Shown here: one piece after another, positions 9,426 to 53,000 of the stretch
Numbering within the stretch: the stretch's first letter is position 1
Layout: every line of letters starts with the position of its first letter
Assembly (NCBI GenBank): GCA_963931865.1
Contig: OZ007509.1
Span: 881,978 to 945,977, forward strand
Reading direction: 5' to 3'
DNA: 64,000 nt
Source of the DNA: Axinella damicornis
Lineage: Eukaryota > Porifera > Demospongiae > Axinellida > Axinellidae
The notes under the pieces: model-generated
Told to the model about the DNA's origin: nothing
The model's input: the letters and a program-made list of their open reading frames with translations, nothing else
The model's database searches: none
Translations under genes and position numbers: made by a program

Positions 9426-12400
9426 ATGCAGCCTTCACGCATACAGTGTTGTACACCACTGGGCCTCACTGCCGTGGTACTCTGCAGCTACTGGATGGTA
9501 CTAGCTGGAGGACAGACTTGCCCTCTCTCAGGTAACGTCATGTGTTTCCTGTAATGGCAACCACCTTTATATATCAGCACAACCTCAAAACATGCGTACT
9601 GTTGTGGGTCATATTTATTCCATACAGCTGTTCAATTTCATATTTCCATGCTTCACTTTCTGGACCTAACTCTAACTGCTTTTTCATACGAGCATGAAAA
9701 TGTTCCACGATTCAATTTTCATGACAACTACATATAGCTACATGCAGTCACCATCATGTGTGTGTATAGTGTCTTAATTTCCAACTCTTTGTGCGCACAT
9801 GATATCATTGCGGACCCTTTTATACTGCAACCACATTCACCATCATCCATGCAGTTGCTGACTATTCACTGCGTACTGTTACTGTGAGTGCTGTGAGGGA
9901 GGATGGCTCAACTCCTGGTGCTAGAGTGACCTGGAGCACAACAGTACCACCTGAGTGTGTGGCATCTGTCACAGTGGAGTTCAGAACTAGTAGCAGTGGG
10001 AGTGTAGTGAGATCCCCTAACAGTACATCAGAGACTGAGGTCATTCAGACTGGTCTCCAGTGTGGTACAACCTACTACATCAGAGTGGTGGTTACTGGAG
10101 TAGACTCACATGGTAACCTGACCAGCGACCAAGTACAAGTCTATTTTGAAGGTAAAGTTCATGTATGAATGACTTGCATGAATAATAGCACTTAACGTGA
10201 TGGGTGTTATGCCATTCAGATATACCAGCCCCAGTCAGAGTGAGAGCTGAAGCTACTGCAGACAGCACAAGTATCCAAGTGTTGTGGGAGTGGTCACGTC
10301 AGAGTGTACTGTTGTGTTTTGACAGTGTTAGAGTTGACTACCAACCTGAGGGAGGCTCTCAGATGATGTACACAGTGGACAGTGCAACAGTAACCAGTGC
10401 CACTTTGTCCAACCTCCAGTGCAACACACAGTACACCATCTGTGTTGTTGTTGTGGGTGGTAGGACTGGTACAAGGAGTCTCACCACAGTGGTGTCTCTA
10501 CCAGCAAGAGGTATTGTAGTACTTCAGCCACAATATTAGTCATACCATATTAGCTACACTTTATCCCCTCCAGCCCCTCCCACTCCCACTGAGGTCACTG
10601 TTCAGCTCATGAATGCCTCAACTGTCAGGGTAGCATGGCAGTGGACTAGTTCAGGTCCAGCTCCCAGCTGCTTCAACACCACCCGTGTGACCTACCATCC
10701 TGAGGGAGGTGGTGAGTCCTCCCTGCAGCTCAGGGACCCAGCAGCAACTGAGACTATCCTCACTGGCCTCCAGTCCAACACATGCTACACCATCACTGTG
10801 GTGGCCACTGCTGGAGAGCACAGGAGGGAGAGTGCAGCAATTGCAGTGTTCCTTCCACTAGTGCTACAAGGTATATATGCATGGTCTGCATGTGAAGCAC
10901 ACTAACCCTAAAGCCTGCTCGAAATGCTATTATTGCAGGTCCACATAATCATTCAGCAGCTGAGCTATTTACATGTCCATTCACTGGTCCCGGACCAACA
11001 CCATCCACTGACCCTGGAACCAGGGCACGGACATCTGTTGACCCTGGACCCAGGCCATCCCCTGACCCTGGTCTGCTGGCAGGAGTTGCTGTATTTGTGA
11101 TTGTGCTGGTGCTTGCAGCAGCCTGCATCTTGGTAGTACTCCTTGTCGTGTGGAGGTAAGACCTTAACCTGTACCTTTGTGAACATGAAGTTGCTGCTGT
11201 GTAATGCACTTGCCTTTCAGAAGAGATAGTCCATCTATTTGGTGTACTGCCATGTATGGCTTTCCTATAGGCAAGGTAGGAAGGGCATGAAGGTCACTGC
11301 AGTGGAATTGCCTGAAATACCAGATACTGACAGCAAAGAGGAACAAGATGCAGCTACAGCTGTTGACAACACCAGCAACGAGAGAGTTCCTAGTAAGTTG
11401 AATGTACTGGGTATATGGCATCAATTATGGTCAGTTAGCTACATTCATGAGCACAAGAGGCTAAACATACCCCAGTGTGAAAGACACATAGATCTATTTA
11501 GAGGATGAGCTATGGCTGCAATGTGTGCACATTATAGGCAGAGATACACCACACACACGTGCAAACCATGCACGCAAAGTCAGAACTTCAGTGGCAGAGA
11601 ATGGAGGCCTTTTCTGCCACATTTGACTTCACATGCAGGCACCATCTCAGGACTAACAAATTCTCCTCCTGGGTTTTACGTACTTGCACCCCAAGTGCAA
11701 AACTCTGCAAATATCACTCATTAAATTGCTACTCACATTTGTCATACACGTCAATGCTGCCCTACATATAATGGTTATGTTTATGAGCAGTGTTGCAGTA
11801 ACTAAACTAACAACACCCTCACCCACAGCCTCCCAACCGACCATTGTGGATTACCAGCAGAAGGTGCTGTCTTTGGAGGGGGAGCAGGTCACCCTGACAG
11901 TGAAGGTTGCTGGCAGCCCCACCCCCACTATCACATGGCTCTTCAATGGGAAGAAGGTGAAGGATGACTACTCCACTGAGGTGGGGAAGGATGGATCACT
12001 GACACTCACGTGTGTGGAGCTGAAGCATGCTGGCACCTACACCTTCAGTGTCAGCAACAGTATGGGCAGTGTGGAGGGGTGCACCAAACTGGTCGTCCAC
12101 ACTGAGGATGAGGACTGTACCAGTGCACCCAAAGTTGAGAGCAACCCAGTTGTCAAGGAAACGTTTGGGGAGTATGTTTCCAGCCTTCATGCACACAACA
12201 ATGGTGGCTTCATTGTGCAATACCAGGTAATAAGTTAAGTAGCTCCACATTACGTGTATACACAACACAATACAGTGGACTATCCTCCATTATAGACCTT
12301 GCCCTCTGGGGAAGAAGGCCATCAGGTGACCATAGGCAAAACCTCAGCAAACAGACTCTTGAATCGATTTAGGAACATCACCACTTGTGAGTAATAGTAA

Positions 12401-15400
12401 TAGTGCAGATACCTTCAGTAGCTGTCAGCAATTATAGTCATATATACCCGAGACATCCTGGTAACACAGACACTATACTGTCCAGGTGCATAGTATTAAT
12501 GACTATATATAATTCTGTAGTTATGTAATGAGGTGTAACACAAGTTCCTTCATGAAATTTTCTGGTTACCCTTTTAGATGATGATCATCGTATCGTTCTG
12601 GAGCCCATCACTGGAAGAGTGAATTGTGAACACGAATATATCAACGCCTCCTACATAGATGTAAGACCCTCCACACAATATACAATATGTATATCACTGG
12701 TATAGTGCTACATCTGACACACAGGGCTATTCTCAACACAGGAAGTACATTGCCGCCCAGGGTGAGCTAGTAATCAACCATTGTAGTGGTAGCTATGCAT
12801 TGACACAAACCTTTGCAGGTCCCCTCCCAAACACTGTCACTGACTTCTGGTGGCTAGTGTGGCAGGAGAGGATCCATGTAGTTGCCATGGTAACTAGTGT
12901 TGTGGAGGGGGGACAGCAGAAGTGTGAGCAGTACTGGCCCAGCCAAGGGACCCAGGAGTACGGTCCATTCAAAGTCACCCTCACAGAGCAGCAGGTGTTT
13001 GCAGACTACACCATCCGACAGCTGTATGTTACTGTGAGTGTTGTGGTAACTTTATTGTTGAGTGGCTGTCCTCATTCTTACTTATGTCTAAAGCACTGTG
13101 ACTGAAGATTATGCTACTTGAATTGTTGTAGCAGTGCACTTGTGTAATTGGCGTACTAGCCATGCATATGCCTGCATTGTCTACTCCCACAGTGTGACCA
13201 GGGTGGGAGGACTCCACTGAAGGTGACCCAGTTCCACTTTACTTCCTGGCCAGACCACGGTGTTCCAGAGTATGCTGGGCCAACCCTCAACTACCTCCGT
13301 CGGATGAAGGCCCAGGTGAAGCCCTCAGAGGGATCCATACTGGTGCACTGCAGGTCAGCACAAAATTGAGAATATGTGTTGTATGTCTTTGTGAATGGTG
13401 TGTGCAGGTTGGGTCCAAGACATGAATGGCTCGTCTTGGTGGTGTCTGTCTCCCTGCAGTGCTGGTGTCGGGAGGACTGGCACACTGATTGCCATTGACA
13501 CAGCTCTGGAGCAGGCTGCCCAGGAGGGTGTGGTGGACATCCCAGCTACTGTCACCAAGATGAGGAGGCAGCGCATGAAGATGGTCCAATCACCAGTGAG
13601 AGAAAATGACAGCTGCAAGTGTGTGTTGATAATATGTTTAAGTTCACATCGCTTGGTAACTAAAGAACTTTTGTCTCAGCCTGTTAGCTAGCAGGGTGAA
13701 ACATGCTGTGGACTTTTAATTTACAGAAGTGTGCACATGCAAGTCATGCCTTGAAATCTCAAAACTCTCTCCCCTTGTGACCGAACCAGGAACAGTATGT
13801 GTTCATCCATGATGCTGTCCTGGAGTCCCTCACTTGTGGGGACACACAGATCCCAGCCTCGGGACTGGTTGGTGCCATTGAGAAGCTGAAGCTGAGGGAC
13901 AGCAGTACTGGGAGGACAGGATTTGAGACCCAGTTCAATGTATGTCAAAGTGGCATAGCTAGCTACATATGAACTTGGGCCAGTATTACCTCTTAGTGGA
14001 ATTCCAATTTTCCAGAGGGCAACCACAGTTTCAGAGTGCATATAAACATTTGCTGTTTATCCAGAAAAAAACAACAACAAATGGCTATTAGCTATTGCCA
14101 CATTATCAAGGCCACACCACACTGTTTTTGAGTATACATTTGCGCATGCTGTTTATGCATGGAGGACAAACAGGATGGCTATTAGCTATTAGCTACCATT
14201 AACATTATATCAGGCCCACCACATGGCCCAAGCACTTGATGTTTATGAGGACAAACAGGATGGCTATTAGCTCGACCATTTGCCTGTATCAACAGGTCCT
14301 CAGTCTGGTGACTCCTAAACCTACTGAGGTCATCAGAACCTCCGCCTTCCGCTTCCCTGATGTAAACAGGAGCACAGACTTCCTGCCACGTGAGACAAAA
14401 TATTTGTATTTTGTTTTTGCATAGCTTCAGTTATGGGAGATATCATATTTTAGGGAAGCAAACGTTTTTGAACATGCAGCTGACGTCTGGAGGGTTCCAC
14501 TGAAGGGTGAGAGTAACGACTACATCCATGCCAGCTTTGCACATGTGAGAGCAGCATGACCCGTGTCACTATTTCTACTGAATGCTGAAGATCGTTGTGA
14601 GTAGATGTGCAGCACTTCAGAGCTGACACATACACTGACAGTGATCGTGGCAGTTTGATCCTGTCAGTATACTACAACTTGGCAGTGATATCTTAACTCC
14701 ATTGTTAATTGTTCAATAGTAAACTCCTGTTCAATGCAATATTTAAACAAAATGTCTTTCCTCTTACGTACGTGCACCATCACCATCTAGTCCCTTTTCT
14801 CCATTGCACACACATGCAGGGCTACAAGCAGTACAAAGGGTTTATCATCGCTCAGGCTCCGATGAAGTTCACGTGCCGGGACTTCTGGAAGATGATCTAT
14901 GAGAGGGAGTGTGGGGTGGTCGTGATGCTGTCAGACCTGGTGGAGAATGGAAGGGTAGGACTGACATTGTACCATGAACGTGTAATCTCAGTTACAAATC
15001 TCTGATGGTGAACTGAAGAGGCTATACTTCTCACAGCTAGCCTTCATTTTTGCATGCATGCTGCAAGCGATCAAAATCTTGAGGTGTAAAAGGACTGGGA
15101 ACGAGGCTAATGGTTAGCTGTACCTAAACAAGCTGTGTCACAACACCATATGAGATCTCATGTATAGATAAACTTTCTTACGTCATGCGTTTCTTCCCTG
15201 CAGGAGGTGTGTCACCAGTACTGGCCCACTGGTGACACCAAGGGGGTGCAGAAGTATGGGGAGTTTAATGTATTTGTCCTCCAAGCCACGCAGAAGTATG
15301 GCTTTGTACAGCGCATGCTCAGTATCACCAACCCCAAGGTAAGGGGTGGGCAGATTTGTCTCCAGCTATGTTATAGTGGGTATAACTACCCTGGCTCTGG

Positions 15401-16046
15401 ATCAAAACTCAGCACGTATTCCTCCTGCCTTTGATCTTGCAGTCTGGCCAGGTGCACAAGGTGACCCAGTTCCAGATTTCATGCTGGACCCCTGAGGGTC
15501 TGTGCACCTCCCCCCGTGCCATCATTGACATCATTGAGCAGGTGTTGATGATACAGAGGAGGACCGGAAACAGGCCCATTGTGGTCCACGGCAGGTGAGC
15601 CTGCTTGGTTGGGTCCTTCTCCCGTTTTACACATGTATATATAGATACAGTTGTATATAATTATACAGTAGTGTTCGCAGGTTTGTATCCTGCTGCAATT
15701 TCTGTGTTTGCATGCGTCTCTGTTTCCCTTCCACACACACACACACCACACACTTGCACTGTATGCAGTGACACGGTGAGTCGGTGTGGGGTGTTCTGTT
15801 CCCTGATCAATGCCACTGAATGCTGCAAGACGGAGGGCATTGTGGATGTGTTCCAGGTGGTGAAGGCACTCCGCATCCAGAAACCAGGCAGTGTGCTCAC
15901 TGAGGTAAGCTTGAGCATTGAGATGTGCAGACCGACTGGAATGTGACCCTGGTCTCTGTCTTTCCTTGCAGGAGCAATATCATTTCATATTTGACCTCAT
16001 GCTATTGTTTCTTGATTCATTCAGCATCTACTCCAATTTTAAGTAA
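9426..16046 (+). CDS. receptor B: intact receptor tyrosine phosphatase, 3xFN3-TM-Ig-PTP-pseudoPTP
   Basis: Exons: 9426-9531, 9855-10151, 10220-10510, 10574-10870, 10939-11155, 11271-11392, 11829-12226, 12296-12386, 12578-12660, 12725-12761, 12819-13033, 13193-13353, 13460-13595, 13790-13939, 14296-14389, 14480-14544, 14820-14954, 15204-15338, 15443-15594, 15769-15904, 15972-16046. Phases agree throughout and give 1130 residues. Order: signal peptide (1-29, hydrophobic [15 protein letters not shown]); FN3 at about 36-134, 135-231 and 232-330; Pro/Asp/Gly stalk; TM 376-402; basic RQGRKG stop-transfer; Ig-like I-set 447-535 with Trp480 but Val468 and Phe516 where the disulfide cysteines belong; PTP D1 from about 590, with FTSWPDHG (Asp739) and [10 protein letters not shown] (Cys771); PTP D2 with HGSDTVSR (1059-1066), so no nucleophile. 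D1 should dephosphorylate phosphotyrosine at the inner membrane face; the ligand is unknown. It is the cleanest reference copy for the array. Confidence 0.92.
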
Positions 16047-17222: not shown

Positions 17223-20200
17223 ATGCAGTCACTATGCATACAGTGCTGTACACCACTGGGCCTCACTGCCATGGTACTCTGCAGCTACTGGATGGTACTA
17301 GCTGGAGGACAGAATTGCTCTCTCTCAGGTAACTTCATGTGTTTCCTGTAATGGCAACCACCTCTGTGTCAGCACAACTGTGTTTTAATACCAGTATTGG
17401 TGTGGGTCATTCCAAGTAGCTAGATGTTCACTTCCATATTTCCATGATTTCTGCAACTCTTCGTACTTGCTTTTCATATGAGCATGAAAATATTCCATGG
17501 TTCATTTGTTTTATGACAACTAGCCACATGCAGTCACCATCATGGGTGTATATAGTGACTTAATTTTCGTGGCGGGAGAGGGTATGGCTTAAACTCTTTG
17601 TGCACACATGATATCACTGCGGACCCAATAGCTATCAGATTCTGATTTTACACTGCAACCATATTCGCCATCATCCGTGCAGCTGCTGACTATTCTGTTA
17701 CTGTGAGAGATGATGGCCCAACTCCTGGTGCTAGAGTGACTTGGAGCACAACAGTACCACCTGAGTGTGTGGCATCTGTCACAGTGGAGTTCAGAAATAG
17801 TAGCAGTGGGAGTGTAGTGAGATCCTACACAACTACCAGTACATCAGAGACTGAGGTCATTCAGACTGGTCTCCAGTGTGCTACAACCTACTACATCAGA
17901 GTGGTGGTTACTGGAGTAGCCTCACTTGGTACAGTGAGCAGCGACCAAGTACAAGTCTATTTTGAAGGTAAACACTCTGTACTGTACAATTGTGTTGTGT
18001 GCATGCAATTAATTGTTACAGCAACTTTTACTGAATGGTGTTATGACAGATATACCAGCCCCAGTCACAGTGAGAGCTGAAGCCACTGCAGACAACACAA
18101 GTATCAGAGTGTTGTGGGTGTGGTCACGTCAGGGTCTGCTCACGTGTCTTGACAGTGTTAGAGTTGACTTCCAACCTGAGGGAGGCTCTCTGATGATGTA
18201 CACAGTGGACAATGCAACAGCAACCAGTGCCACCTTGTCCAACCTCCCGTGCAACACACAGTACACCATCAGTGTTTACGCCAGTGGTGGTACGACTAGT
18301 ACAAGGAGTCTCATCACAGTGGTTTCTCTACCAGCAAGAGGTACTGTTACTGTATACGGCAGCTGATAGACACTTAATTTAGCTACATAGTATACACTTT
18401 GCTATATTCCCCTCCAGCCCCTCCCACTCCCACTAAGGTCACTGCTCAGCTCATGAATGCCTCAAGTGCCAGGTTAACATGGCAGTGGACTAGTTCAGGT
18501 CCAACTCCCAGCTGCTTCAACACCACCCATCCTGAGGGAGGTGGTGAGTCCTCCCTGCAGCTCAGGGACCCAGCAGCAAATGAGACCATCCTCACTGGCC
18601 TCCAGTCCAACACTTGCTACACCATCACTGTGGTGGCCACTGCTGGAGAGCACAGGAGGGAGAGTGTAGCAATGACAGTGTTCTGTCCACTAGTGCAACA
18701 AGGTATATATGGTCTGCATGTGAACATAATTGATCCCTAAACCTGCTCAAAACCCTATCACTGCAGGTCCACATAATCTTTCAGCAGCTGTGCTATTTCC
18801 TACCTCAGTGTATTTGACATCTGGTCCTGGACCAATGCCATCCCCCGACCCTGGAACCAGGCCATGGCCATCTGCTGACCCTGGGGATAGGATATCCCCT
18901 GACCCTGGTCTGCTGGCAGGAGTTGCTGTGATTGTGATTGTGCTGGTGCTTGCAGCAGCCTGCATCGTGGTAGTACTCCTTGTCATGCGGAGGTAAGACC
19001 TTAACATCATTGTGAACATGAAGTTGCTGCCGTACAATGCACATGTCCCTGTTTCCTTAAGTGTAGGTTTTGCCTTTCAGAAGAGGTAGTCCATCTATTT
19101 GGTGTACTGCCATGCATGTATGGCTTTCCTATAGGCAAGGTAGGAAGGGAATGAAGGTCACTGCAGTGGAATTGGCCGACATGACAAATACTGACAGCAA
19201 AGAGCAACAGGATACAGCTGCAGCTGTTGACAACACCAGCAGTGAGAGAGTTCCTAGTAAGTTAAAATGTATATGGCATGTTACATTCATGAGCACAAGA
19301 GGCTAAACATACCCCAAGTGAAGATCTATTCATTGGAAGAGTTATGGCTCCAATGTATGCACATTATAGGCAGAGATACAACATACACTTGCGCAAACCA
19401 TGCAAAGTCAGAACTCTGGTGGCAGAGAATGGAGACCTTTTCTACCACATTTAGCTTCATGGCACCATCCGAGGACCCACAAACTCTCCTGGGTTGATCT
19501 GGGCTTTATGTGCATGGATACACAAGTTATTAGTAATTGCACCCCAAGCGTAATCTCATCACTCATTAAATTGCTACTCTCATTTGTTATGTTTCATACG
19601 CATCAATGCTGCCCAACGTACAATTGTGGTATTGTTTCATACGCAGCAATGCTGCCCAACATACAATGGTGTTGTTTCATACGCAGCAATGCTGCCCTAC
19701 GTACAATGGTATTGTTTCATATGCAGCAATGCTGCCCTACATACAATGGTATTGTTTCATACGCAGTAATGCTGCCTTACATACAATGGTATTGTTTGTA
19801 ATGTTCATCAGCAGTGTCACAATAACTAAATGACCAACACAATAACTAAATGACCAGAGCCTCCCCACCAACCATGAGCCATGTTGCCATTACCAACACA
19901 CCCACGCATGCAGCCTCCCCACCGACCATTGTGGAGTACCAGCAGAAGGTGCTGTCTTTGGAGGGAGAGCAGGTCACCCTGACAGTGAAGGTTGCTGGCA
20001 GCCCCACCCCCACTATCACATGGTTCTTCAATGGGAAGAAGGTGAAGGATGACTACTCCACTGAGGTGGGGAAGGATGGATCACTGACACTCACGTGTGT
20101 GGAGCTGAAGCATGCTGGCACCTACACCTTCAGTGTGAGCAACAGTGTGGGCAGTGTGGAGGGGTGCACCAAACTGGTCGTCCACACTGAGGATGAGGAC

Positions 20201-23200
20201 TGTACCAGTGCACCCAAAGTCGAGAGCAACCCAGTTGCTAAGGAAACGTTTGGGGAGTATGTTTCCAGCCTTCATGCGCACAACAACGCTGCTTTCTTTT
20301 CACAATACCAGGTAATAAACTTAAGCACCTCCACACACACACACAACAGTGAATTGTCCTCCGCTATAGACCTTGCCCTCTGGGGAGGAAGGCCATCAGG
20401 TGACCATAGGCAAAATCTCAGCAAACAGGCTCCTAAATCGATTCAGAAACATCACAGCTTGTGAGTCGATTAATATCTGATTTATTGTTTCTCTTTCATG
20501 ATAAACATAACGATTTCATTTTCTTTAGATGACAATCGTCGTGTTGTTCTGGAGCCCATCTCTGGAAGAGTGAACTGTGAACACAAATACATCAACGCCT
20601 CCTACATAGATGTAAGATCCTCCACACAATATACAATATGTATATCACTGGTTTATTACTACATCTGACACACAGGGCTATTCTGAACGCAGGAAGTACA
20701 TTGCCACCCAGGGTGAGCTAGTAATACTCTCAGTAGTATGCATTGAAGACTATTGACACAAACCTTTGCAGGTCCCCTCCCAAACACTGTCACTGACTTC
20801 TGGTGGCTGGTGTGGCAGGAGAGGATTCATGTACTTGCCATGGTAACTAGTGTTGTGGAAGGGGGACAGCAGAAGTGTGAGCAGTACTGGCCCAGTGAGG
20901 AGACCCAGCAGTACGGTCCATTCAAAGTCACCCTCACAGACCAGCAGGTGTTTGCAGACTACATGATCCGACAGCTGCTTGTTACTGTGAGTGTTGTGGC
21001 AACTTTATTATTGAGACATATATAGGCAGTGTGGTTACTTCTTGTCAGCAGTCCACTTGTGTAAGTTGCATACTAGCCATGCCTCAATTGTCTTCTATAC
21101 TCCCACAGTGTGACCAGGGTGGGAGGACTTCTCTGAAGGTGACCCAGTTCCACTTTACTTCCTGGCCAGACCACGGTGTCCCAGAGTATGCTGGGCCAAC
21201 CCTCAACTACCTCCGTCGGATGAAGGCCCAGGTGAAGCCCTCCAATGGATCCAAACTGGTTCACTGCAGGTCAGCAAAAAATGTCGATTAAAGGTGGGCT
21301 GGATAGGTATTGTGTATGTTGGGGGAGAATCAAAGAGATGAACATCTTGCAATTGGTGGTGTCTGATACCTACAGTGCTGGTGTTGGGAGGACTGGCACA
21401 CTGATTGCCATTGACACAGCTCTGGAGCAGGCTGCTCAGGAGGATGTGGTGGACATCCCAGCCACTGTCACCAAGATGAGGAGGCAGCGCATGAAGATGG
21501 TCCAATCACCAGTGAGAGTTGGAACTAATGCATAATATTATACGTATGACTTTACAGTTCACTTGGAATACAGCTATACTGCAGTCATCATTTATTATGA
21601 TTATTATCTACTGAGTAGAGGTTTACACACTAGTGACCCTCATGCATACCATTAACTTGTATACGAGAACTCTTCTGAGCATTATTCTCTCTCTGTGTGA
21701 TCCAGGAGCAGTATGCGTTCATTCATGATGCTGTTCTGGAGTCCCTCACCTGTGGGGACACTCAGATCCCAGCCTCGGGACTGGTCGGTGCCATTGAGAA
21801 GCTGAAGCAGATGGACAGTGAAACTGGGAGGACAGGATTTGAGACCCAGTTCCATGTACGTTGCAGTGGCAAAGTTACATGACGAGAGCCAATATGTGTG
21901 TCTAAGTTGTATCAAGTGGGTGATTTACCCAAGATTACAATATACCTACCAAGTCCAGTATACTGGAAGCTACTGACCTCTCAAGAGTGATAGCTACCAT
22001 AAACGGTAATGCATGAGAGCTTTGTAACAGTGTAAACGTTTTGTCAATCAGCAACGTCAGTTTGCACTGCAAAAGATGATTGTATACTTTTGTACTCATG
22101 TAAGAGGTGGCTTGGTCAGTAGGAGACTCCTAACAAGCCACACCGGGTGGTGCTTCGGGTGGTGCTTCGGGTGCTTTGTACCTGACCTGGACTTATGACT
22201 GTGTAAATGATTTCTCAATCTGCAACTGTACAGCAAGCCACAATGGGTGCTTCCTACTTCACCAGAACTTGTAACTGTCCAATTGTGTTACTGTGTATTA
22301 TGTCAACCTGTGCTCCAGTATCCACACAAGGATTAAAATGACTGCAGTGTTGCCATGGTGATGCTGATACCACATACTATAAGTGCCCCTTGTGGCATGT
22401 CCAGGAAGGATGGTGGTTATGCATTTCCACCAGCTTGTACATATGGCATAATGTAACATACTGCCACAGCTGCTGGCAAGCTGCATCCCCCACCATATAC
22501 CCTCCCCTTGATGGATGGTTGTCTCCTCTTTCTCCGTCTGACCAGAGATAGAGTTGGCCCGATTTGGGGGGGTAATGCAACCCCCTAACTTACGTCTATT
22601 GTACAGCAGTTTTGGATTTGTTCCGATCATCATTTTTAGTCTCCAGCACTAGACAAGTCACCTTGAACTTCAAAACTCAGGTTAGACGCGTGCACGTGTC
22701 ATGAATGTATTCACGTGATTGGTAGTGGGTGTGGCAACACAATTTTTCGGCCGCACTTCGCACGCCAGTCGCTGAACCCCCCTTTCTAAATTTATAAATC
22801 CGCCACTGGGAAGGGATCCTTATTTGGGTTGCAGCGTCATATGTGGTTTCCACTTAGTTAGAAAATGGACATCAACTGCCACACCGCATTTTGTTTGAGA
22901 TTATTGTGGCTTGAAAGGTCTGAGAGCTGGGCTCTCCCAAGCTCTATATATGGCATTGAAAGTAGCCAATTTACTTGTGATGGTATGGTGACTAATAGTG
23001 TACTTTGTAATACTTCTGATGGTGACAGGACTAGTAGTGTACTTTGTAATACTTCGGGCAGTTGTGTTGTTTTGACTACATTCCTATTTGATAAGTACAT
23101 TCCTAGTCACTAATAATGAGCTTCCACTTAAATTGGATTGGTGGAAATCTCAGGAATAGAGTTTCTTGGATCTACCATTGTATTAATACTCCTGCATTAC

Positions 23201-26828: not shown

Positions 26829-28397
26829 ATGCAGTCACTGCACGTACAGTGCTGTACACCACTGGGCCTCACTGCCATAGTACTCTGCAGCTACTGGATG
26901 GTACTAGCTGGAGGACAGACTTGCTCTCTCTCAGGTAACGTCATGTGTTTCCTGTAATGGCAACCACCTCTATATATCAGCACAACCTCAAAACATGCAT
27001 ACTGTTGTGGGTCATATTTATTCCATGCAGCTGTTCAATTTCATATTTTCATGATTCACGTTTCTGGACCTCACTCTCCTTGCTTTTTCATACGAGCACG
27101 AAAGTGTTTCCACTATTCAATTTTTATGACAACTAGCTTCATGCATTCACCATCATGGGTGTGTATAGTGTCTTAATTTGCACTTCATACTATTAGCTAC
27201 TGTGAGTGTACATGGCCAGAAATTCGCGGACACGGAGTCGGGTTTTCCGTACACGGTTCCGTATACTCAACTCCGCACACTGACGGTGAATGTATGGACG
27301 GCTATGGGAAGACGGAACTTGCAGCTCATCTGCGACTGCTAGCAGCGTTGTTTCACCGATGTAACCCCCCAGAAAGATGGCCAAGAGCGTCTACTCTCTA
27401 CCAATGTAAATACTCTGCTGTGACCTTCGCGTCAGAATTTGCAAAATGCTGTTTCTATTGCAACACTTACATGTAATACTTAACAATACTAACGAAAATA
27501 TTTTTGACACATTTTGTAAATTTAGAGACTTCCTGCTCGCGTATTTTGTAATATTTTTGAGTTGTAACCCCCTAGAACGAAAATTTGTGTTCTAAAGTGT
27601 ATATTTTTGTGTCCTGTCCACAGTTGCTAGCGGTACAGAATTTGCAAAATCATAGCAAAGTACCTACATCTTTGTAACATTTTAACGGCTAAGTTCTAAA
27701 TTACATTCCGTCTACATTCTGAGAAGCCACGTGCGGTTTGGCTGTTTACACGGATGCAGGATGTAATCTTTGAGCCCGGGTACGTGTAACTATATACCAA
27801 GTCTAAGCCCTGTAAGCTAGCTAGTCCATTCCTGCCACTGCATGGTCTTGCATCTCATCATGCCAAATGTACTGTGGCTAGCCAGAGTCGGTATTTCCTC
27901 CACTATCATTAATTTTGAGAATGAGAATCATGCATGAATCCAATGTTCACTGCTGAAAGTACTAAGTGTGTATCTGTGTGTGGAATTATGCAATCCAAAA
28001 CATGCACTGCATTTCAAGACCAAGTACATCATCGTCGCTTTTAGGCGGGCATTCCATGTTCTGGAGATCTGATGAAGATGAGGAACCTTCACTTCTTGTA
28101 TTCATTTGCTCTGAGTTCGACATTTCAGTTTACGCCTTGCTTTCTGCTTCTTCCTTTTGATGAAGGACTGTGTTTTCCCATGACTATATAATGGAAGATT
28201 GGAAACAAAAGTGTCATATACACTTTCTACCCAGCTGAAATTAGATACCAGGAGTGAAAGCATCTTTGACACACAATCGCATTGTGTGACATCACATACT
28301 GTCGAAGCATGAGTGGTGGCCAACGGAAGCCAATAAATTGTCCAGTTAAAGGCCAAGGATATTATAGGAATGGGAAGGGACTATAAATGTACATGTA

Positions 28398-29035
28398 CAC
28401 ACCACACCTGCAAGACTCGCACAGCAAGTCGCCGGCCGGATGGGTGACATGGTACAACACACACCACACCTGCAAGACTCGCACAGCAAGTCGCCGGATA
28501 GGTGACATGGTACAACACACACCACACCTGCAAGACTCGCACAGCAAGTCGGCGGATAGGTGACATGGCACAACACACACCACACCTGCAAGACTCGCAC
28601 AGCAAGTCGGCGGATAGGTGACATGGCACAACACACACCACACCTGCAAGACTCGCACAGCAAGTCGGCGGATAGGTAACATGGCACAACACACACCACA
28701 CCTGCAAGACTCGCACAGCAAGTCGCCGGATAGGTGACATGGCACAACACACACCACACCTGCAAGACTCGCACAGCAAGTCGCCGGATAGGTGACATGG
28801 CACAACACACACCACACCTGCAAGACTCGCACAGCAAGTCGCCGGATAGGTGACATGGCACAACACACACCACACCTGCAAGACTCGCACAGCAAGTCGC
28901 CGGATAGGTGACATGGCACAACACACACCACACCTGCAAGACTCGCACAGCAAGTCGCCGGATAGGTGACATGGCACAACACACACCACACCTGCAAGAC
29001 TCGCACAGCAAGTCGCCGGATAGGTGACATGGCAC
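28398..29035. repeat. 58-bp minisatellite, 11 copies
   Basis: The word CAAGACTCGCACAGCAAGTC recurs at 28411, 28473 and then every 58 bp to 28995. Units differ by GTCGCC/GTCGGC and GGTGACATGG/GGTAACATGG variants. The array leaves minus-strand frames of up to 350 codons open because the unit lacks stops, not because of coding. Confidence 0.95.
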
Positions 29036-29045
29036 ATCCACAGGT

Positions 29046-29440
29046 CAGACTGACAGCATGCACACCACAAAGCCCGACACAGATCAGACTGACAGCGTGC
29101 ACACCACAAAGCCCGACACAGATCAGACTGACAGTGTGCACACCACAAAGCCCGACACAGATCAGACTGACAGTGTGCACACCACAAAGCCCGACACAGA
29201 TCAGACTGACAGTGTGCACACCACAAAGCCCGACACAGATCAGACTGACAGTGTGCACACCACAAAGCCCGACACAGATCAGACTGACAGTGTGCACACC
29301 ACAAAGCCCGACACAGATCAGACTGACAGTGTGCACACCACAAAGCCCGACACAGATCAGACTGACAGTGTGCACACCACAAAGCCCGACACAGATCAGA
29401 CTGACAGTGTGCACACCACAAAGACCGACACAGATCAGAC
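29046..29440. repeat. 39-bp minisatellite, 10 copies
   Basis: The word CAGACTGACAGTGTGCACAC repeats every 39 bp from 29046, directly abutting the 58-bp array. Thirty-nine is a codon multiple, so a 13-residue peptide repeat (PDTDQTDSVHTTK) stays open on the plus strand, without a credible start, splice context or downstream domain. Confidence 0.95.
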
Positions 29441-32400
29441 TATTATAATACAGTGTACACAGCCCAACACAAAATATAAGACTAACAAATTATAATCAAA
29501 CACACAGCTACTCACCGTAACTCAGCCCGTATGCATCCCTGTCATTGCTGGCAGTGCTTGCTTCTTGATCTCTGTAATAGCCTTCGCGCTCAAATGCATC
29601 CACGTGCAGTTACCTTTCTTTTGATGCGGTACCTCTGTTGATACAATATGCACCAGGTGGCTTTCCTAAGGAATGTGATTAGTTCACGGTTTACATAGTG
29701 ACCGATGTGGTTTCCGTGTATGGTTTGGATACTCTTCATAACCGGATGTCCTCAGCTGCTATACTGATTTCTGGCCATGAAGGATGAGGACGTTGCAGAC
29801 CCAACAGCTATCAGATTCTGATTTTATACTGCAACCATATTCACCATCATCCTTGCAGCTGCTGACTATTCACTGCGTACCGTTACTGTGAATGCTGAGA
29901 GGGAGGATGGCCCAACTCCTGGTGCTACAGTGACCTGGAACACAACAGTACCACATGAGTGTGTGGCATCTGTCACAGTGGAGTTCAGAACTAGTAGCAG
30001 TGGGAGTGTAGTGATATCCTACACAACTACCAGTACATCAGAGACTGAGGTCATTCAGACTGGTCTCCAGTGTGGTACAACCTACTACATCAGAGTGGAG
30101 GTTACTGGAGTAGCCTCACTTGGTGCACTGAGCAGCAACCAAGTACAAGTACTTATTGTTGGAGGTAAAGTCATGTACTGTACAATTGTGTATGTTACAG
30201 CAACTTTATTGGATTGTGTTGTGACATTTCGATATACCAGCCCCAGTCATAGTGAGAGCTGAAGCCACTGCAGACAACGCAAGTATCAGAGTGTTGTGGG
30301 AGTGGTCAGGTCAGGGTCTGCTCATGTGTCTTGACAGTGTTAGAGTTGACTACCAACCTGAGGGAGGCTCTCTGATGATGTACACAGTGGACAGTGCAAC
30401 AGCAACCAGTGCCACCTTGTCCAACCTCCAGTGCAACACACAGTACACCATCAGTGTTTATGCCAGTGGTGGTAAGACTGGTATAAGGAGTCTCACCCCA
30501 GTGGTGTCTCTACCAGCAAGAGGTATTGTAGCAGCTGATAGACACTTACTTTTGCCACATAGTATGCACATTACTCTGTATCCCTCCAGCCCCTCCCACT
30601 CCCACTGAGGTCACAGCTGAGACCACAAATGCCTCAAGTGTCAGGGTAGCATGGCAGTGGACTAGTTCAGGTCCAGCTCCCAGCTGCTTCAACACCACCC
30701 GTGTGACCTACCATCCTGAGGGAGGTGGTGAGTCCTCCCTGCAGCTCAGGGACCCAGCAGCAAATGAGACCATCCTCACTGGTCTCCAGTGCGACACACG
30801 CTACACCATCACTGTGGTGGCCACTGCTGGAGAGCACAGGAGAGAGAGTGCAGCAATGACAGTGCTACTTCCACTCGTGCAACAAGGTATATATATGGTC
30901 TGCGTGTGTGAACACACAGCATTATTGATCCCTATACCTGCTCAAAACCCTATCACTGCAGGTCCACATAATCTTTCAGCAACTGTGCTATTTCCTACTT
31001 CAATGTATTCATTCACTGGTCCTGGACCAACACTACCCCCAGACCCTGGAACCAGGCCATGGCCATCTGCTGACCCTGGTCTGCTGGCAGGAGTTGCTGT
31101 GTTAGTGGTGCTTGCAGCAGCCTGCGTCTTGATAGTACTCCTTGTCGTGCGGAGGTAAGACCTTAATCTGCACCTTTGGGAACATGAAGTTGCTGCCGTG
31201 CAATGCACATGTCCCTGTTTCCTTAAGTGTAGGTTTTGCCTTTCAGAGGAAGTAGTCCATCTATTTGGTGTACTGCCATGTACGGCTTTCCTATAGGCAA
31301 GGTAGAAAGGGCATGAAGGTCACTGCAGTGGAATTGGCTGACATAACAGATACTGACAGCAAAGAGGAACAGGATACAGCTACGGCTGTTGACAACACCA
31401 GCAATGAGAGAGTTCCTGGTAAGTTGAATGTATATTATGGCATTAATTGAGTATGGTGAGTTACATTCATGAGCATGAGAGGCTAAACATACCCCAAGTG
31501 AAGTGGAAGAGCTATGGCTCCAATGTATGCACATTATAGGCAGAGATACACCATACACTTGCGCAAACCATGCAAAGTCAGAACTCCAGTGGCAAGGAAT
31601 GGAGACCTTTTCTGACACATTTAGCTCCATGGCACCATCCGAGGACTCACAAACTCTCCTGGGTTGATCTGGGCTTTAGGTGCATGGATACACAAGTTAA
31701 GAAATTGTACCCCAAGCGTAATCTCATCACTCATTAAATTGCTATTCTCATTTGTTATGTTTCATACGCAGCAATGCTGCCCTACAGACAATGGTATTGT
31801 TTGTAATGTTCATGAGCAGTGTTGAGATAGCTAAATGACCAACACCAAGATCCTACCCACCAACCATGAGCTGGGTTGAGATAACTACATTACCAACACA
31901 CCCACACAGCCTCCCCACCGACCATCGTGGATTACCAGCAGAAGGTGCTGTCTTTGGAGGGGGAGCAGGTCACCCTGACAGTGAAGGTTGCTGGCAGCCC
32001 CACCCCCACTATCACATGGCTCTTCAATGGGAAGAAGGTGAAGGATGACTACTCCACTGAGGTGGGGAAGGATGGATCACTGACACTCACGTGTGTGGAG
32101 CTGAAGCACGCTGGCACCTACACCTTCAGTGTCAGCAACAGTGTGGGCAGTGTGGAGGGGTGCACCAAACTGGTCGTCCACACTGAGGATGAGGACTGTA
32201 CCAGTGCACCCAAAGTCGAGAGCAACCCAGTTGCTAAGGAAACGTTTGGAGAGTATGTTTCCAGCCTTCATGCACACAACAACGGCAGCTTTATTGTGCA
32301 ATACCAGGTAGCTAATAAGTTAAGTAGCTCCACATTATGTGTATTTAACACAATACAGTGGACTATCCTCCACTATAGACCTTGCCCTCTGGGGAAGAAG

Positions 32401-38012: not shown

Positions 38013-41000
38013 ATGCAGTCTCCACGGATACAGTGTTGTACACCACTGGGCCTCACTGCCATGGTACTCTGCAGCTACTGGATGGTACTAGCTGGAGGCC
38101 AGACGTGCTCTCTCTCAGGTACGTCATGTGTTTCCTGTGATGGCAACCACCTCTGCATGTGTCAGCACAACTGTGTTTTAATACCAGTATTGGTGTGGGT
38201 CATTCCAAGTAGCTAGATGTTCAATTTTACATGATTTCTGCAACTCTTCGTACTTGCTTTTCATATGAGCATGAAAATATTTCCATGCATGGTTCATTTG
38301 TTTTATGACAACTTGCCACATGCAGTGACTTAATTTTCGTGGTGGGAGAGGGTATGGCTTAAACTCTTTGTACACGCATGATTATAGTGCGGACCCAATA
38401 GCTAACAGATTCTGATTTTATACTGCAACCACATTCACCATCATCCATGCAGCTGCTGACCTTACACTGCGTACTGTTACTGTGAGTGCTGTGAGGGAGG
38501 ATGGCCCAACTCCTGGTGCTAGAGTGACCTGGAGCACAACAGTACCACCTGAGTGTGTGGCATCTGTCACAGTGGAGTTCAGCAGTGGGAGTGTAGTGAG
38601 ATCCTACACAACTACCAATACATCAGAGACTGAGGTCATTCAGACTGGTCTCCAGTGTGGTACAACCTACAACATCACAGTGGTGGTTACTGGAGTAGCC
38701 TCACTTAATGGTACAGTGACCAGCAACACAGTGCAAGTTGGAGGTAAACACTCTGTACTGTACAATTGTGTTGTGTGCATGCAATTAATTGTTACAGCAA
38801 CTTTTACTGGATGGTGTTATCACAGATATACCAGCCCCAGTCAGAGTGAGAGCTGAAGTCACTGCAGACAACACAAGTATCAGAGTGTTGTGGGAGTGGT
38901 CAGGTCAGGGTCTGCTCATGTGTCTTGACAGTGTTAGAGTTGACTACCGACCTGAGGGAGACTCTCCGATGATGTACACAGTGGACAGTGCAACAGCAAC
39001 CAGTGCCACCTTGTCCAACCTCCCGTGCAACACACAGTACACCATCAGTGTTTATGCCAGTGGTGGTAAGACTGGTATAAGGAGTCTCATGACAGTGGTT
39101 TCTCTACCAGTAAGAGGTACTGTTACTGTATACGCCAGCTGATAGACACTTAATTTAGCTACATAGTATACACTTCGCTATATATCCCTCCAGCCCCTCC
39201 CACTCCCACTAAGGTCACTGTTCAGCTCATGAACGCCTCAAGTGCCAGGGTAACATGGCAGTGGACTAGTTCAGGTCCAACTCCCAGCTGCTTCAACACC
39301 ACCCGTGTGACCTACCATCCTGAGGGAGGTGGTGAGTCCTCCCTGCAGCTCAGGGACCCAGCAGCAACTGAGACCATCCTCACTGGCCTCCAGTGCAACA
39401 CACATTACACCATCACTGTGGTGGCCACTGCTGGAGAGCACGGGAGAGAGAGTGCAGCAATGACAGTGTTCTGTCCACTAGTGCAACAAGGTATATATGG
39501 TCTGCATGTGAACACACAGCATAATTGATCCCTAAACCTGCACAAAACCCTATCACTGCAGGTCCACATAATCTTTCAGCAGCTGAGCCATTTCCTACCT
39601 CAGTGTATTTGACATGTTCATTCACTGGTCCTGGACCAACGCCATCCCCCGACCCTGGAACCAGGCCATGGCCATCTGCTGACCCTGGGGATAGGATATC
39701 CCCTGACCCTGGTCTGCTGGCAGGAGTTGCTGTGATTGTGATTGTGCTGGTGCTTGCAGCAGCCTGCATCGTGGTAGTACTCCTTGTCCTGCGGAGGTAA
39801 GACCGTGAACATGAAGTTGCTGCCGTGCAATGAACATGTCCCTGTTTGTAGGTTTTGCCTTTCAGAAGAGGTAGTCCATCTATTTGGTGTACTGCCATGC
39901 ATGTACGGCTTTAATTCCTATAGGCAAGGTAGAAAGGTCATGAAGGTCACTGCAGTAGAATTGGCTGAAATACCAGATACTGACAGCAAAGAGGAACAAG
40001 ATACAGATACAGCTGTTGACAGCACTAGTAAGTTAAATGTATATGGCATCAATTAAGTATGAGTTACATTCATGAGCATGAGAGGCTAAACATACCCCAA
40101 GTGAAGATCTATTCATTGGAAGAGTTATGGCTCCAATGTATGCACATTATAGGCAGAGATACACCATACACTTGCGCAAACCATGCAAAGTCAGAACTCC
40201 AGTGGCAGAGAATGGAGACCTTTTCTGCCACATTTAGCTTCATGGTACCATCCGAGGACTCACAAACTCTCCTGGGTTGATCTGGGCTTTAGGTGTATGG
40301 ATACACAAGTTATTAGTAATTGCACCCCAAGCGTAATCTCATCACTCATTAAATTGCTACTCTCATTTGTTATGTTTCATACGCATCAATGCTGCCCAAC
40401 GTACAATGGTATTGTTTCATACGCAGCAATGCTGCCCAACATACAATGGTGTTGTTTCATACGCAGCAATGCTGCCCTACGTACAATGGTTACTGGTTGT
40501 TTCATATGCAGCAATGCTGCCCAACATACAATGGTGTTGTTTCATACGCAGCAATGCTGCCCTACGTACAATGGTTACTGATTGTTTCATATGCAGCAAT
40601 GCTGCCCAACATACAATGGTGTTGTTTCATATGCAGCAATGCTGCCCTACGTACAATGGTTACTGATTGTTTCTGTAACGGACCCGAGCGGTATTAACTT
40701 GCAACAGAAGAGTAATAACGAACTTCACAATCTCAGAATCTAACAAATCTAACCACATACAAAACCAAGCACTACTTATATACTGAACAACAACAAAAGA
40801 CCATACAGACCAGCAACAAAAGTAAGGACAAGACTACAATACACAAAAGAATTCGCCCTGCGCACCAAGGGGCTCCCTCCAAAGTTGGGCCAACACTATT
40901 TAACATTAATTAACAGTTCCAGTCCTCCACAGTTTCATACGCAGCAATGCTGCCCTACGTACAATGGTATTGTTTCATATGCAGCAATGCTGCCCTACAT

Positions 41001-44000
41001 ACAATAGTATTGTTTCATACGCACCAATGCTGCCCAACATACAATGGTATTGTTTCATACGCATCAATGCTGCCCTACATACAACGGTATTGTTTCATAC
41101 GCAGTAATGCTGCCGTACATACAATGGTATTGTTTGTAATGTTCATCAGCAGTGTCACAATAACTAAATGACCAACACAATAACTAAATGACCAGAGCCT
41201 CCCCACCAGCCATGAGCCGTGTTGCCATTACCAACACACCCACGCATGCAGCCTCCCCACCGACCATTGTGGAGTACCAGCAGAAGGTGCTGTCTTTGGA
41301 GGGAGAGCAGGTCACCCTGACAGTGAAGGTTGCTGGCAGCCCCACCCCCACTATCACATGGCTCTTCAATGGGAAGAAGGTGAAGGATGACTACTCCACT
41401 GAGGTGGGGAAGGATGGATCACTGACACTCACGTGTGTGGAGCTGAAGCATGCTGGCACCTACACCTTCAGTGTCAGCAACAGTGTGGGCAGTGTGGAGG
41501 GGTGCACCAAACTGGTCGTCCACACTGAGGATGAGGACTGTACCAGTGCACCCAAAGTCGAGAGCAACCCAGTTGTCAAGGAAACATTTGGGGAGTATGT
41601 TTCCAGCCTTCATGCACACAACAATGGTGGCTTTATTGTGCAATACCAGGTAATAAGTTAAGTAACTCCACATTATGTGTACAATACAGTGAATTGATTG
41701 TCCTCCACTATAGACCTTGCCCTCTGGGGAAGAAGGCCATCAGGTGACCATAGGCAAAATTTCCGCAAACAGGCTTCTGAATCGATTCCGAAACATCACA
41801 GCTTGTGAGTCATTTTATTGTATGTATCTTAAGAGATGTGGCTTCTCTTTCATGATCTTGATATTTTGTTGTTCCTTTAGATGATGATCATCGTATTGTT
41901 TTGGAGCCCATCTCTGGAAGGGTGAATTGTGAACACGAATACATCAACGCCTCCTACATAGATGTAAGATCCTCTACACAATATACAATACAATGTCATG
42001 TGTGTCACTGGTTCTGTTACTAGCCATACATCTGACACACAGGGCTATTCTCAACACAGGAAGTACATTGCTGCCCAAGGTCAGCTAAGTAATCAATCAT
42101 TGGATCCCTTCTTAGTGGTATGCATTGACACAAACCTTTGCAGGTCCCCTCCCAAACACTGTCATTGACTTCTGGTGGCTGGTGTGGCAGGAGAGGATCC
42201 ATGTAGTTGCCATGGTAACTAGTGTTGTGGAGGGTGGACAGCAGAAGTGTGAGCAATACTGGCCCAGCCAGGAGACCCAGCAGTACGGTCCCTTCCAAGT
42301 CACGATCACTGAGCAGCAGGCATTTGCAGACCACACCATCCGACAGCTGCTTGTTGCTGTGAGTATTGTGGTAATTTTATATTGAGTTGCTGTCGTTGTA
42401 CTTAGCTATATAGGCAGTGTGACTGCAGATTACTTGAGTTCTTGTCGGCAGTCCATGGCCACTTGTGTAACTGGCGTACTTAGGCCATGCCTGCACTTTC
42501 CTCTACTCCCACAGTGTGACCAGGGTGGGAGGACTCCACTGAAGGTGACCCAGTTCCACTTTACTTCCTGGCCAGACCACGGTGTTCCAGAGTATGCTGG
42601 GCCAACCCTCAACTACCTCCGTCGGATGAAGGCCCAGGTGAAGCCCTCCAGAGGATCCATACTGGTTCACTGCAGGTCAGCAAGAAATTGAGATTTATTG
42701 ATAGGAGTAAATATGTGTTGTATGTACGTCCAGGCTCATCAAGGCGGTGTCTGTCTCCCTGCAGTGCTGGTGTTGGGAGGACTGGCACACTGATTGCCAT
42801 TGACACAGCTCTGGAGCAGGCTGCCCAGGAGGGTGTGGTGAACATCCCTGCCACTGTCACCAAGATGAGGAGGCAGCGCATGAAGATGGTCCAATCACCA
42901 GTGAGAGAGAATTGCAACTGCAAGTGTGTGTTGATAATATGTAGTCTATAAAGTTCACATCACTTGGTAAGTAAAATTGGCTCAGCCAGTAGCAGGGTGA
43001 AACATGCTGTGAAGTTTCACATGCTCATTACAGAAGTGTGCACGTGCAGGTTTAGCCTCGTTCCCAGGCAGCGTGGCCTGGGAACAAGGCTAATGCAGGT
43101 TGTGCCAATATCCCTCTCTGTGACCCAACCAGGAGCAGTATGCATTCATCCATGATGCTATTCTGGAGTCCCTCACCTGTGGGGACACCCAGATCCCAGC
43201 CTCGGGACTGGTTGGTGCCATTGAGAAGCTGAAGCAGACGGACAGTGAAACTGGGAGGACAGGATTCGAGACCCAGTTCCATGTACGTCAAAGTGGCATA
43301 GCTAGCTTCATATGAACTTAGGCTCTGTTAATTATAGTGTGTCAGTATTACCTCTTAGTGGAATTTTCCAGAGAGCAACCACAGTGCACAAAAACATCTG
43401 CTGTTCAGCTATCCAGGACAAACAAACAGATGGCTATTAGCTATTGCCATTATAATAACATTATCAGGCCACCACTCTCTTTATGAGTACATATGTAATA
43501 CATTTGCTGTTTATCCAGGACAAACAAACAGATGGCTATTACCTATACTGCCATTAACATTAATTATCAAGCCCATCACACTGTTTTTGAGTATACATGT
43601 GTACATTTGCTGTTTATGCAGACAAACAGGATGACTATTAGCTCGACCATTTGTCTGTATCAACAGGTCCTCAGTCTGGTGACTCCTAAACCTACTGAGG
43701 TCATCAGAAACTCCGCCTTCCGCTTCCCTGATGTAAACAGGAGCACGGACTTCCTGCCACGTGAGACAAAATATCTGTATTATGTTTTTGTATAGCTTCA
43801 GATATCATATTTTGTGGATTGTGTTTTGAAGCTAACTTTTGTTATTTTTGAATATGCAGCCGATGTCTGGAGGGTTCCACTGAAGGGTGAGAGTAACGAC
43901 TACATCCACGCCAGCTTTGCACATGTGAGAGCAGCATGACCTGTGTCCACTGAATGCTAATGATCATTGTGAGCATGCATGCAGACATGTGCAGCACTTC

Positions 44001-50037: not shown

Positions 50038-53000
50038 CAGACGCGATGTGACTACGCTGCACGATTAGTTGCCTCGCGCTAAGGCGCTCGGCAATGAAGA
50101 TGATTGAGCTAAATTTCTTAGCAATTAGCTAGACTTGGACGTCAACGGTAGCTACTTGCAATTGGTTTATCTGCAACATTTCTATCAGAATCTTCAGGCA
50201 TACTGTGCAATGCCCAAGATCTAGCTAATTGCTAACAATGATTTTTGCTGAGCATGGTGACCTCAAACTCAACATTGTCTTCAGTCCCCTCAGGAGCCCC
50301 ACAGTCGCTGGAGGCCACATTTGTACAATTCACTGAAGTATTTCTAAACTGGAGAGAGGTACCTTATGTTCAACAAAATGGACCAATCACTGGCTATGTT
50401 GTGCAGTACTATGCAACCTGTAGTCACGGTAGAGATGTGCAGCAGACCAAGTCAGTAGTGACAACAGGAAGCATCGTTGATAGTCTTACTCCAAACACTG
50501 AGTATGCTTTCCAAGTGGCAGCAGTGAACACCAACGGAACTGGCCCGTTCAGTGAAGCCATGGGAGGTTAGTGATATATGTTACATAGCTGCACATTGCC
50601 ACCCCAGATGATGCTACCCTTTTACATAAATTACAGGTGCTCCACATGTGCAGTTGGTTGTGGTCAGTCCAGTGAACTCCACCAGTGTGACTGTCTCCTG
50701 GAGTGAGGTTCAGTGCTTCAATGGAAGTGGAGCAGTCACCCACTACCTTGTGCAGTATCATTCCATGTGTGGTGGTGCTGTGCAGAATGCAACAACTGAT
50801 GGCACAGTTCAAACTATTTCAGGCCTCACTCCAAACATTGCTGTGTACACGTTCCGAGTGGCTGCAGTTGGTACTAATCAGATGATTGGGCCATTCAGTG
50901 ATCCTGCCAATACATCTGTATCTGGTAAGTGCTCTAAGACACAATCAATACGCATGAAAATATCAGTGATGTCACTCACTGACTGCAGGTACAATACCCA
51001 TGTGTCCAGAAGAAGGCTCAGGTAATGATATAGCTAATGTAGCTCAGTAGAAAAGCACTGTGGAGAAAAATCAATTCCATATAATTATGATTGTGCAGAT
51101 GGAATCGGTTCATCCACTGATCCTAGAACCAGTTCATCCACTGATCCTGGACCCAGATCGTCCTCTGATCCTGGTCTGCTGGCAGGAGTTGTTATGTCGG
51201 TGATTGTGCTGGTGGTTTCAGCTGCTAGCATTGTAGTCCTCATTATCCTGTGGAGGTTAGATCCTACTGTTCACCTTTGTTGACATGATATTAACCGTTC
51301 CTAAGTACATGTTTTACACTGCATGGGGTAGCTATATGTAGTCCAGACTCTATTTATGGTATCCCCACATATGACTTTCCTTTAGACGTAGGCAAGGTAG
51401 AAAGGGCATGAAGGTCACTGCAGTGGGATTGGCTGAGATGACAGATGGTGACAGCAAAGAGGAACAGGATACAGCTACAGCTGTTGACAACATCTGCTAT
51501 GTTCCTAGTACGTTCAACATATAGTGTTATGGCCTATAGATATAGCATGGTAGTCAGTGCTGTATGCAGGGATTGTATAAGTCATATGACATGCGATTGC
51601 CTGTATTATAGCTAATATATGTGAGGTGCATACACATTGCTAGGTAACAACATTCACATCTTGTTGGTGTGCGTCTTATTGCTTCAAACTCCACTGGTGC
51701 ATTTACATGTCCCCATGGCAGTGATCAAGAGAGCATGATGACATCATCATCACCACAATGACGATGATGTCATAATGCGCTCTTGCAGCGCAATGCCTAG
51801 CAGGTACAGCAAATTCTATTGACATACAAAGTCCACACTTCCATAAAATACAAGACAAAGCTAATAAACCATCACATTACGGGAAGAGCTATAGCACATA
51901 AACAATCTGGACTCCAGTGGCTGCACTGTAAAAAATGAAGTGTGCACTGCACGCCAATTTGTCCCAATACACACACCAAAAGCCATTTTGGTGTGTGTAT
52001 TGGGACAAAATGGCGTGCAGTGCACACTTCATTTTTTACAGTGTGGGATTGAAGCTCTTACAGCGGCATGCCCTCTCAGGACTACAGATCGGCAAATTAT
52101 GGGTCTTTGCACTCCATTACTTTGTATACACTTGGAGTGTAAGTACAGTGTTGTGATGAATTGTGTTGTGTACCAGTGCATGCACCCTAAGTTAAGTGAT
52201 GTAGCAAGCAAGGTATGAGCAGTGTTGCAATAACTACATTACCAACACACGCACACAGTCTCCCCACCGACCATCATGGATTACAAGCAGAAGGTGCTGT
52301 CTTTGGAAGGAGAGCAGGTCACCCTGACAGTGAAAGTTGCTGGCAGCCCCACCCCCACTATCACATGGCTCTTCAATGGGAAGAAGGTGAAGGATGACTA
52401 CTCCACTGAGGTGGGGAAGGATGGATCACTGACACTCACGTGTGTGGAGCTGAAGCATGCTGGCACCTACACCTTCAGTGTCAGCAACAGTGTGGGCAGT
52501 GTGGAGGGGTGCACCAAACTGGTCGTCCACACTGAGGATGAGGACTGTACCAGTGCACCCAAAGTCGAGAGCAACCCAGTTGCTAAGGAAACGTTCGGAG
52601 AGTATGTTTCCGGCCTTCATACACACAACAACACTGCCTTCTTTTCACAATACCAGGTAATAAACTTAGCACCTCCACACATAGCTACACACAACAGTGA
52701 ATTGTCCTCCGCTATAGACCTTGCCCTCAGGGGAGGAAGGCCATCAGGTGACCATAGGCATTGCCTCATCAAACAGGCTCCTGAATCGATTCAGAAACAT
52801 CACAGCTTGTGAGCCAAGTTATTTGTATTTAATGCTAATTTATTAAGAAATGTGGTTTCTCTTTTGTGATAGATGACGATCATCGTGTTGTTCTGGAGCC
52901 CATCTCTGGAAGAGTGAATTGTGAGCACGAATACATCAACGCCTCCTACATAGATGTAAGACCCTCTACACAATATACAATATGCATATAACTGGTTTAT

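Follow-up and report, generated by a model that had tools for sequence, protein, structure and literature searches.

Gene copy B of the analysed window, a stretch of 64,000 nucleotides of the Axinella damicornis genome (C5:881978-945977), and its neighbouring copies encode what are, judged from their sequence, almost certainly type I receptor tyrosine phosphatases with an immunoglobulin (Ig) domain in the cytosol, membrane-proximal to the first phosphatase domain (D1). The statement as a whole, that this cytosolic Ig between the membrane and D1 serves as a shared docking or spacer module, has in our estimate a probability of about 0.65.

Copy B comprises 21 exons and 1,130 codons that are open throughout and end in TAA, and all 20 of its introns are GT-AG. 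The domain order runs from a signal peptide through three fibronectin type III (FN3) domains, a transmembrane (TM) segment, and a basic juxtamembrane stretch to an I-set Ig domain, followed by the phosphatase (PTP) domains D1 and D2 (Table 1). The three FN3 exons matched Pfam fn3 with E values of 7.4e-6, 1.8e-10, and 1.5e-8. Exon 7, with an AG acceptor and a GT donor, is entered in phase 1 and left in phase 0, and its translation matched Pfam I-set with an E value of 2.7e-15 (56.6 bits, against a cut-off of 23.7). Signal peptide and TM calls were made by mean hydropathy over 19 residues with a threshold of 1.6, rather than by a trained predictor, and the only two stretches of copy B to exceed this value were the signal peptide and the TM segment itself. 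The predicted topology has a single TM upstream of the Ig and no second one after it. The Ig and the first part of D1 are encoded together in exon 7, which leaves no room for a TM between them. Against solved structures, the cytoplasmic part of copy B was best matched by RPTP sigma, alpha, and LAR, with two PTP matches to RPTP sigma, whose D1 alignment begins within exon 7, at ETFGEYV.

Table 1. Positions in the window of the exons of copy B and of the TM-to-Ig portion of copies C to F.
Feature	Position	Strand	Remarks
Copy B, exon 1	9426..9531	+	Signal peptide with the start codon; hydropathy peaks at 1.72 (residue 8)
Copy B, exons 2-4	9855-10151, 10220-10510, 10574-10870	+	Three FN3 domains; each phase 1 to 1
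Copy B, exon 5	10939..11155	+	Sole TM segment, residues about 376-402; mean hydropathy 3.58
Copy B, exon 6	11271..11392	+	RQGRKGMK basic juxtamembrane stretch and acidic linker; in phase with exons 5 and 7
Copy B, exon 7	11829..12226	+	Cytoplasmic I-set Ig without canonical Cys pair, then start of PTP D1
Copy B, exons 8-14	12296..13939	+	PTP D1 with WPDHG
Copy B, exons 15-21 and stop	14296..16046	+	PTP D2, catalytic Cys replaced
Copy C	18769..20311	+	TM exon 18769-18987; juxtamembrane 19136-19255; Ig exon 19916-20311
Copy D	30964..32307	+	TM exon 30964-31149; juxtamembrane 31298-31417; Ig exon 31912-32307
Copy E	39564..41649	+	TM exon 39564-39791; juxtamembrane 39925-40041; Ig exon 41254-41649
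Copy F	51077..52656	+	TM exon 51077-51253; juxtamembrane 51393-51491; Ig exon 52261-52656

All 15 copies read in C5:690001-945977 (256 kb) follow the order TM, juxtamembrane, Ig, D1, although one of them, at C5:847k, has a broken Ig exon. These 15 include all five window copies, for which a reading made earlier from the sequence alone had placed the Ig exon after the TM and a basic stretch and before D1; the exon coordinates agree with it in each case. TM exons were read in 15 of about 46 genes of the array, the remainder being read at the Ig exon only, eight of them as DNA. In three of three diverged paralogues, on contigs C4, C2, and C13, a strong hydrophobic segment likewise lies upstream of the Ig. 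With an FN3 ectodomain, a signal peptide, and one TM, these proteins have the features of receptor PTPs, but the position of the Ig after the TM in 15/15 copies is unlike known layouts, in which an Ig, if there is any, is N-terminal to the TM. The juxtamembrane exon itself occurs in two versions. Nine of the 15 copies have VDNICYEK/ERV, which includes a tyrosine (copy F, for example) and resembles an ITIM, and six, copy B among them, are free of tyrosine.

Within the phosphatase part, the D1 motifs WPDHG, VHC, and AGVGRTG were present in 15/15 copies, so that both the WPD loop and HCX5R are in place and D1 is predicted to be an active phosphatase domain. In D2, glycine replaces the catalytic cysteine (VVHG) in 14 copies, the 15th being unread at this site, and the motif DTVSRCG is found in all 15. 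By its motifs, D2 (window 15443-15904) is a pseudophosphatase. RPTP sigma/LAR and RPTP alpha/epsilon share with copy B the type I layout, an FN3 ectodomain, an active D1 with WPD and HCX5R, and a D2 without activity motifs; copy B differs in having an Ig between TM and D1. Our search of the literature, which covered open-access papers and few subscription papers or preprints, found no description of a cytoplasmic Ig in a receptor PTP. The parts are known, and the arrangement appears new to the searched literature, though databases already contain gene models with it.

In membrane receptors, Ig domains are generally assumed to be extracellular, where their disulfide can form. The disulfide sites of this domain, assigned by the usual I-set pattern, are exon positions 24 (Val468) and 72 (Phe516), and the residue numbers given earlier for these two and for Trp480 were exact in the 1,130-residue model. 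Cysteine was found at neither site in any of 135 listed homologues, 26 copies from this genome, or three diverged paralogues. Among the listed homologues, position 24 is V in 118, I in 10, M in four, A in two, and L in one, and position 72 is F in all 135. Read as DNA, the 26 copies have V and F throughout; 14 of them are from C5:690001-945977, and of the other 12, four lie on C9, C12, and C13. The paralogues, which are 41-55% identical, have I/F, L/F, and V/L. The 135 homologues are those listed (120 plus 15 new) of 191 and 257 found, and they do not amount to 135 independent cases, since P0005 and P0008 are the window's own and P0124 and P0125 are the C4 and C2 paralogues. As a control, 7/7 I-set domains that this genome encodes in non-family proteins retain both cysteines; four of these are similar copies and two are identical, which leaves about three independent cases. 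On these alignments, the absent B-F disulfide is a family trait. The sequence-only reading had pointed to the same substitutions in all five window copies. The sites are indeed alike, but they do not count as independent evidence, because synonymous divergence over the Ig among these copies is only 3-4% and such near-identical genes are not five separate cases; the independent evidence in the sequences is that of the diverged paralogues and of other species.

A substitute disulfide between Cys505 and Cys528 of copy B (exon positions 61 and 84) was considered and rejected. Cysteine occurs at position 61 in 22 and at position 84 in 113 of the 135 listed homologues, so the two are not retained as a pair and a substitute bond is unlikely as a family trait. 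Sequons were absent from the Ig in 122 of the listed homologues and numbered one in the other 13, though four are present in the PTP portion of copy B, which is cytoplasmic, and this makes sequons a weak witness on the side of the membrane occupied by the Ig.

The Ig core is otherwise well kept. W36, G68, and Y70 are invariant in 135/135 listed homologues, and a further mark of the family is His at position 66 (134/135), where Ig domains usually have Asp. AlphaFold2 predicted a confident Ig fold (pLDDT 91.6, pTM 0.81). Top Foldseek and VIA rows include MLCK/telokin, twitchin, titin, and obscurin, and a weaker first model ranked MLCK, titin, and telokin high. Extracellular Igs (Sidekick-2, contactin, MuSK) match the fold equally well, however, and we therefore rejected the fold as evidence for cytosolic ancestry and see no special kinship with cytosolic I-sets. 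MLCK, twitchin, titin, and obscurin are kinases or scaffolds without a TM, and their cytosolic Igs either lie beside a catalytic domain or serve to bind partners. Copy B shares the I-set fold and the cytosolic setting with them but has phosphatase domains and a TM, making this a likeness of layout only.

Homologues in other sponges were sought with residues 375-720 of copy B, and 120 of the 239 proteins found are listed. A survey of these 120 with a family-type Ig profile, which could miss a very different Ig, found such a domain ahead of D1, and either downstream of the final TM or in a protein with no TM, in two, Geodia barretti P0136 and Ephydatia muelleri P0148. The other 118 have no family-type Ig between TM and D1, seven of them having no TM at the threshold. 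In both positives, the I-set lies directly before D1 and its disulfide sites are without cysteine. The E. muelleri gene model (Em0019g593a) has a TM near 567-591, a Pfam I-set at 625-711, and a PTP domain from 788, with G and F at the disulfide sites, and thus gives a positive answer to the search of other sponges for the TM-Ig-PTP order. It differs from copy B in its ectodomain, is 40% identical over 72% of the searched region, and has a D2 that is incomplete in the model. The G. barretti protein (RPTP epsilon-like), with V and F at these sites, is modeled as Ig-PTP-PTP with neither signal peptide nor TM; it starts with MGNKSS, which resembles a myristoylation start, and may be a partial gene model or else a cytosolic form with a lipid anchor. 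Two Amphimedon queenslandica proteins (P0149 and P0172) have a related D1 (47-49% identical over about half of the searched region) and a D2 with SDTVSR, but they are without an Ig by Pfam and retain the D2 cysteine (VVHCSDTVSRSG). Gene structure, the three diverged paralogues, and the E. muelleri model together bear out the earlier claim of a real internal Ig module; the roles suggested along with it, namely positioning or regulating the phosphatase or binding a cytoskeletal partner, are candidate functions.

In a D1 tree of 22 rows, the window sequence grouped with Geodia, Ephydatia P0148, two Amphimedon rows, and one JGI row at 80/78, which is not strong. Identity between the window and Geodia D1 is 60% over 266 columns. 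The other forks of the tree are open, and placement relative to R2A (LAR) and R4 (alpha/epsilon) is unsupported either way. Mapped onto this tree, the Ig requires two changes, and no bootstrap tree could do with a single change, though the starred branches still allow a single origin.

The genes belong to a very large tandem array (C5:704987-1439394), in which at least 45 Ig exons, complete or almost so, reach ≥91% identity. Beyond C5, at least four more Ig exons were found, on C9, C12 (two), and C13; these counts are lower bounds, with 150 of 220 candidates scored. Between the copies of C5:690001-945977, dN/dS was calculated by the Nei-Gojobori method with a bootstrap over codons. The FN3 exons gave 1.22 (0.82-1.99), 1.04 (0.71-1.59), and 0.95 (0.64-1.46); because these intervals include 1, they do not demonstrate positive selection. 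For the Ig exon the value was 0.26 (0.15-0.43), and for the Ig codons alone 0.33 (0.14-0.86). The juxtamembrane exon stood at 0.63 and the signal exon at 0.31, and the tested PTP exons ranged over 0.09-0.33, save exon 18 at 0.55 (21 matches, more than one per gene). The Ig exon is under purifying selection, akin to the cytoplasmic PTP exons. A tandem array with FN3 dN/dS near 1 is a candidate diversifying receptor family.

Synonymous divergence among the 26 copies, taken in 12-codon windows, is 0.01-0.05 in codons 13-96 of the Ig exon and 0.14-0.48 in the rest of it. This homogenized Ig core corresponds to 11867-12118 in the window and recurs in the 25 other copies, also across contigs. In the intron upstream of the Ig exon, 41-59% of aligned sites differ, with 18% in its last 50 bases. 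Against the diverged paralogues, synonymous divergence of the Ig is 0.60-0.63, and Ig codons are thus not frozen in general. Localized gene conversion is probably the simplest reading of the uniform core in these alignments; alternatively, selection on synonymous sites within the array may account for it.

Two further features of the window were noted. A unit at 57672-62997 has its own first exon and FN3 exons, and a search of it for TM, Ig, and PTP exons found none before the next first exon at 62998; it may encode an ectodomain by itself or serve as an alternative start cassette. Long open frames of short tandem repeats, on either strand, lie at 28346-29495 and 53561-54201, in introns of copies D and F, and look like non-coding minisatellites. 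A pattern scan of other genome and viral contigs matched 4 and 36 stretches, none of them a relative.

We propose that the Ig would act as a constitutive docking or spacer module that links variable FN3 ectodomains to the phosphatase. Many receptors would share one uniform cytoplasmic unit, the Ig with an active D1, beneath freely varying FN3 domains, so that different outside cues would couple to the same inside partner or substrate. Docking in particular is favored because the Ig stays uniform while the ectodomains above it change, and because partner binding is seen in other cytosolic Igs; as gene conversion alone could yield the uniformity, the argument is not a strong one, and we judge the chances of a docking role to be evenly balanced.

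The main rival to docking, possible though clearly the less probable of the two, is that the Ig acts in cis, packing on the start of D1 or mediating dimers and so setting phosphatase activity. The Ig lies about 20 residues ahead of the first D1 helix within the same exon, and F112, G113, V116, and H120 at the start of D1 are nearly invariant among the 135 listed homologues, both of which would fit direct contact. Against such packing, the linker (residues 93-132) is unstructured and of low confidence in a model of the whole exon (pLDDT <50) and differs in length and sequence between paralogues and between species. It is unlikely that the Ig is instead a spacer with no activity, or a domain that once belonged to the ectodomain, became stranded on the wrong side of the membrane, and is tolerated without a function of its own. 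The 5' border of exon 7 is in phase 1, as in the FN3 exons, the Amphimedon relatives manage without the domain, and gene conversion can account for its uniformity; the invariant tryptophan, glycine, and tyrosine of the core nevertheless speak for constraint, as does the dN/dS of the Ig codons, with its wide interval.

An extracellular or secreted Ig, produced by transcripts that skip the TM, is very improbable. The phases of copy B would let exons 5 and 6 be skipped jointly with the frame intact, while skipping exon 7 alone breaks it. Yet with Ig and D1 start in one exon, such a product would place the phosphatase outside as well; apart from the signal peptide, it would have no further hydrophobic segment above 1.6, and the Cys pair is absent from every listed homologue. 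An assembly or gene-model artefact or a pseudogene, which the broken exon of the C5:847k copy might suggest, was rejected on the strength of the clean copy B model with its open frame over 21 exons and GT-AG introns; the genome's tally of intact Ig exons (at least 49), cytoplasmic-exon dN/dS well below 1, and related gene models in named sponges stand against it too.

A receptor PTP family that has a disulfide-free internal Ig across several lineages of demosponges would demonstrate that Ig domains were built into phosphotyrosine signaling on both sides of the membrane in early animals. With one exon present in many natural copies, the role of a juxtamembrane Ig is directly testable. The large array with its loosely constrained ectodomains is a candidate family of sponge recognition receptors. 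More tentatively, and rather improbably at present, the array could be a recognition system of at least 45 tandem receptors in which FN3 domains diversify, conversion keeps the Ig uniform, and all members share or compete for one partner through the Ig. If this is true, the cytosolic Ig would be the common signaling adaptor of a sponge family that tells self from non-self or senses microbes.
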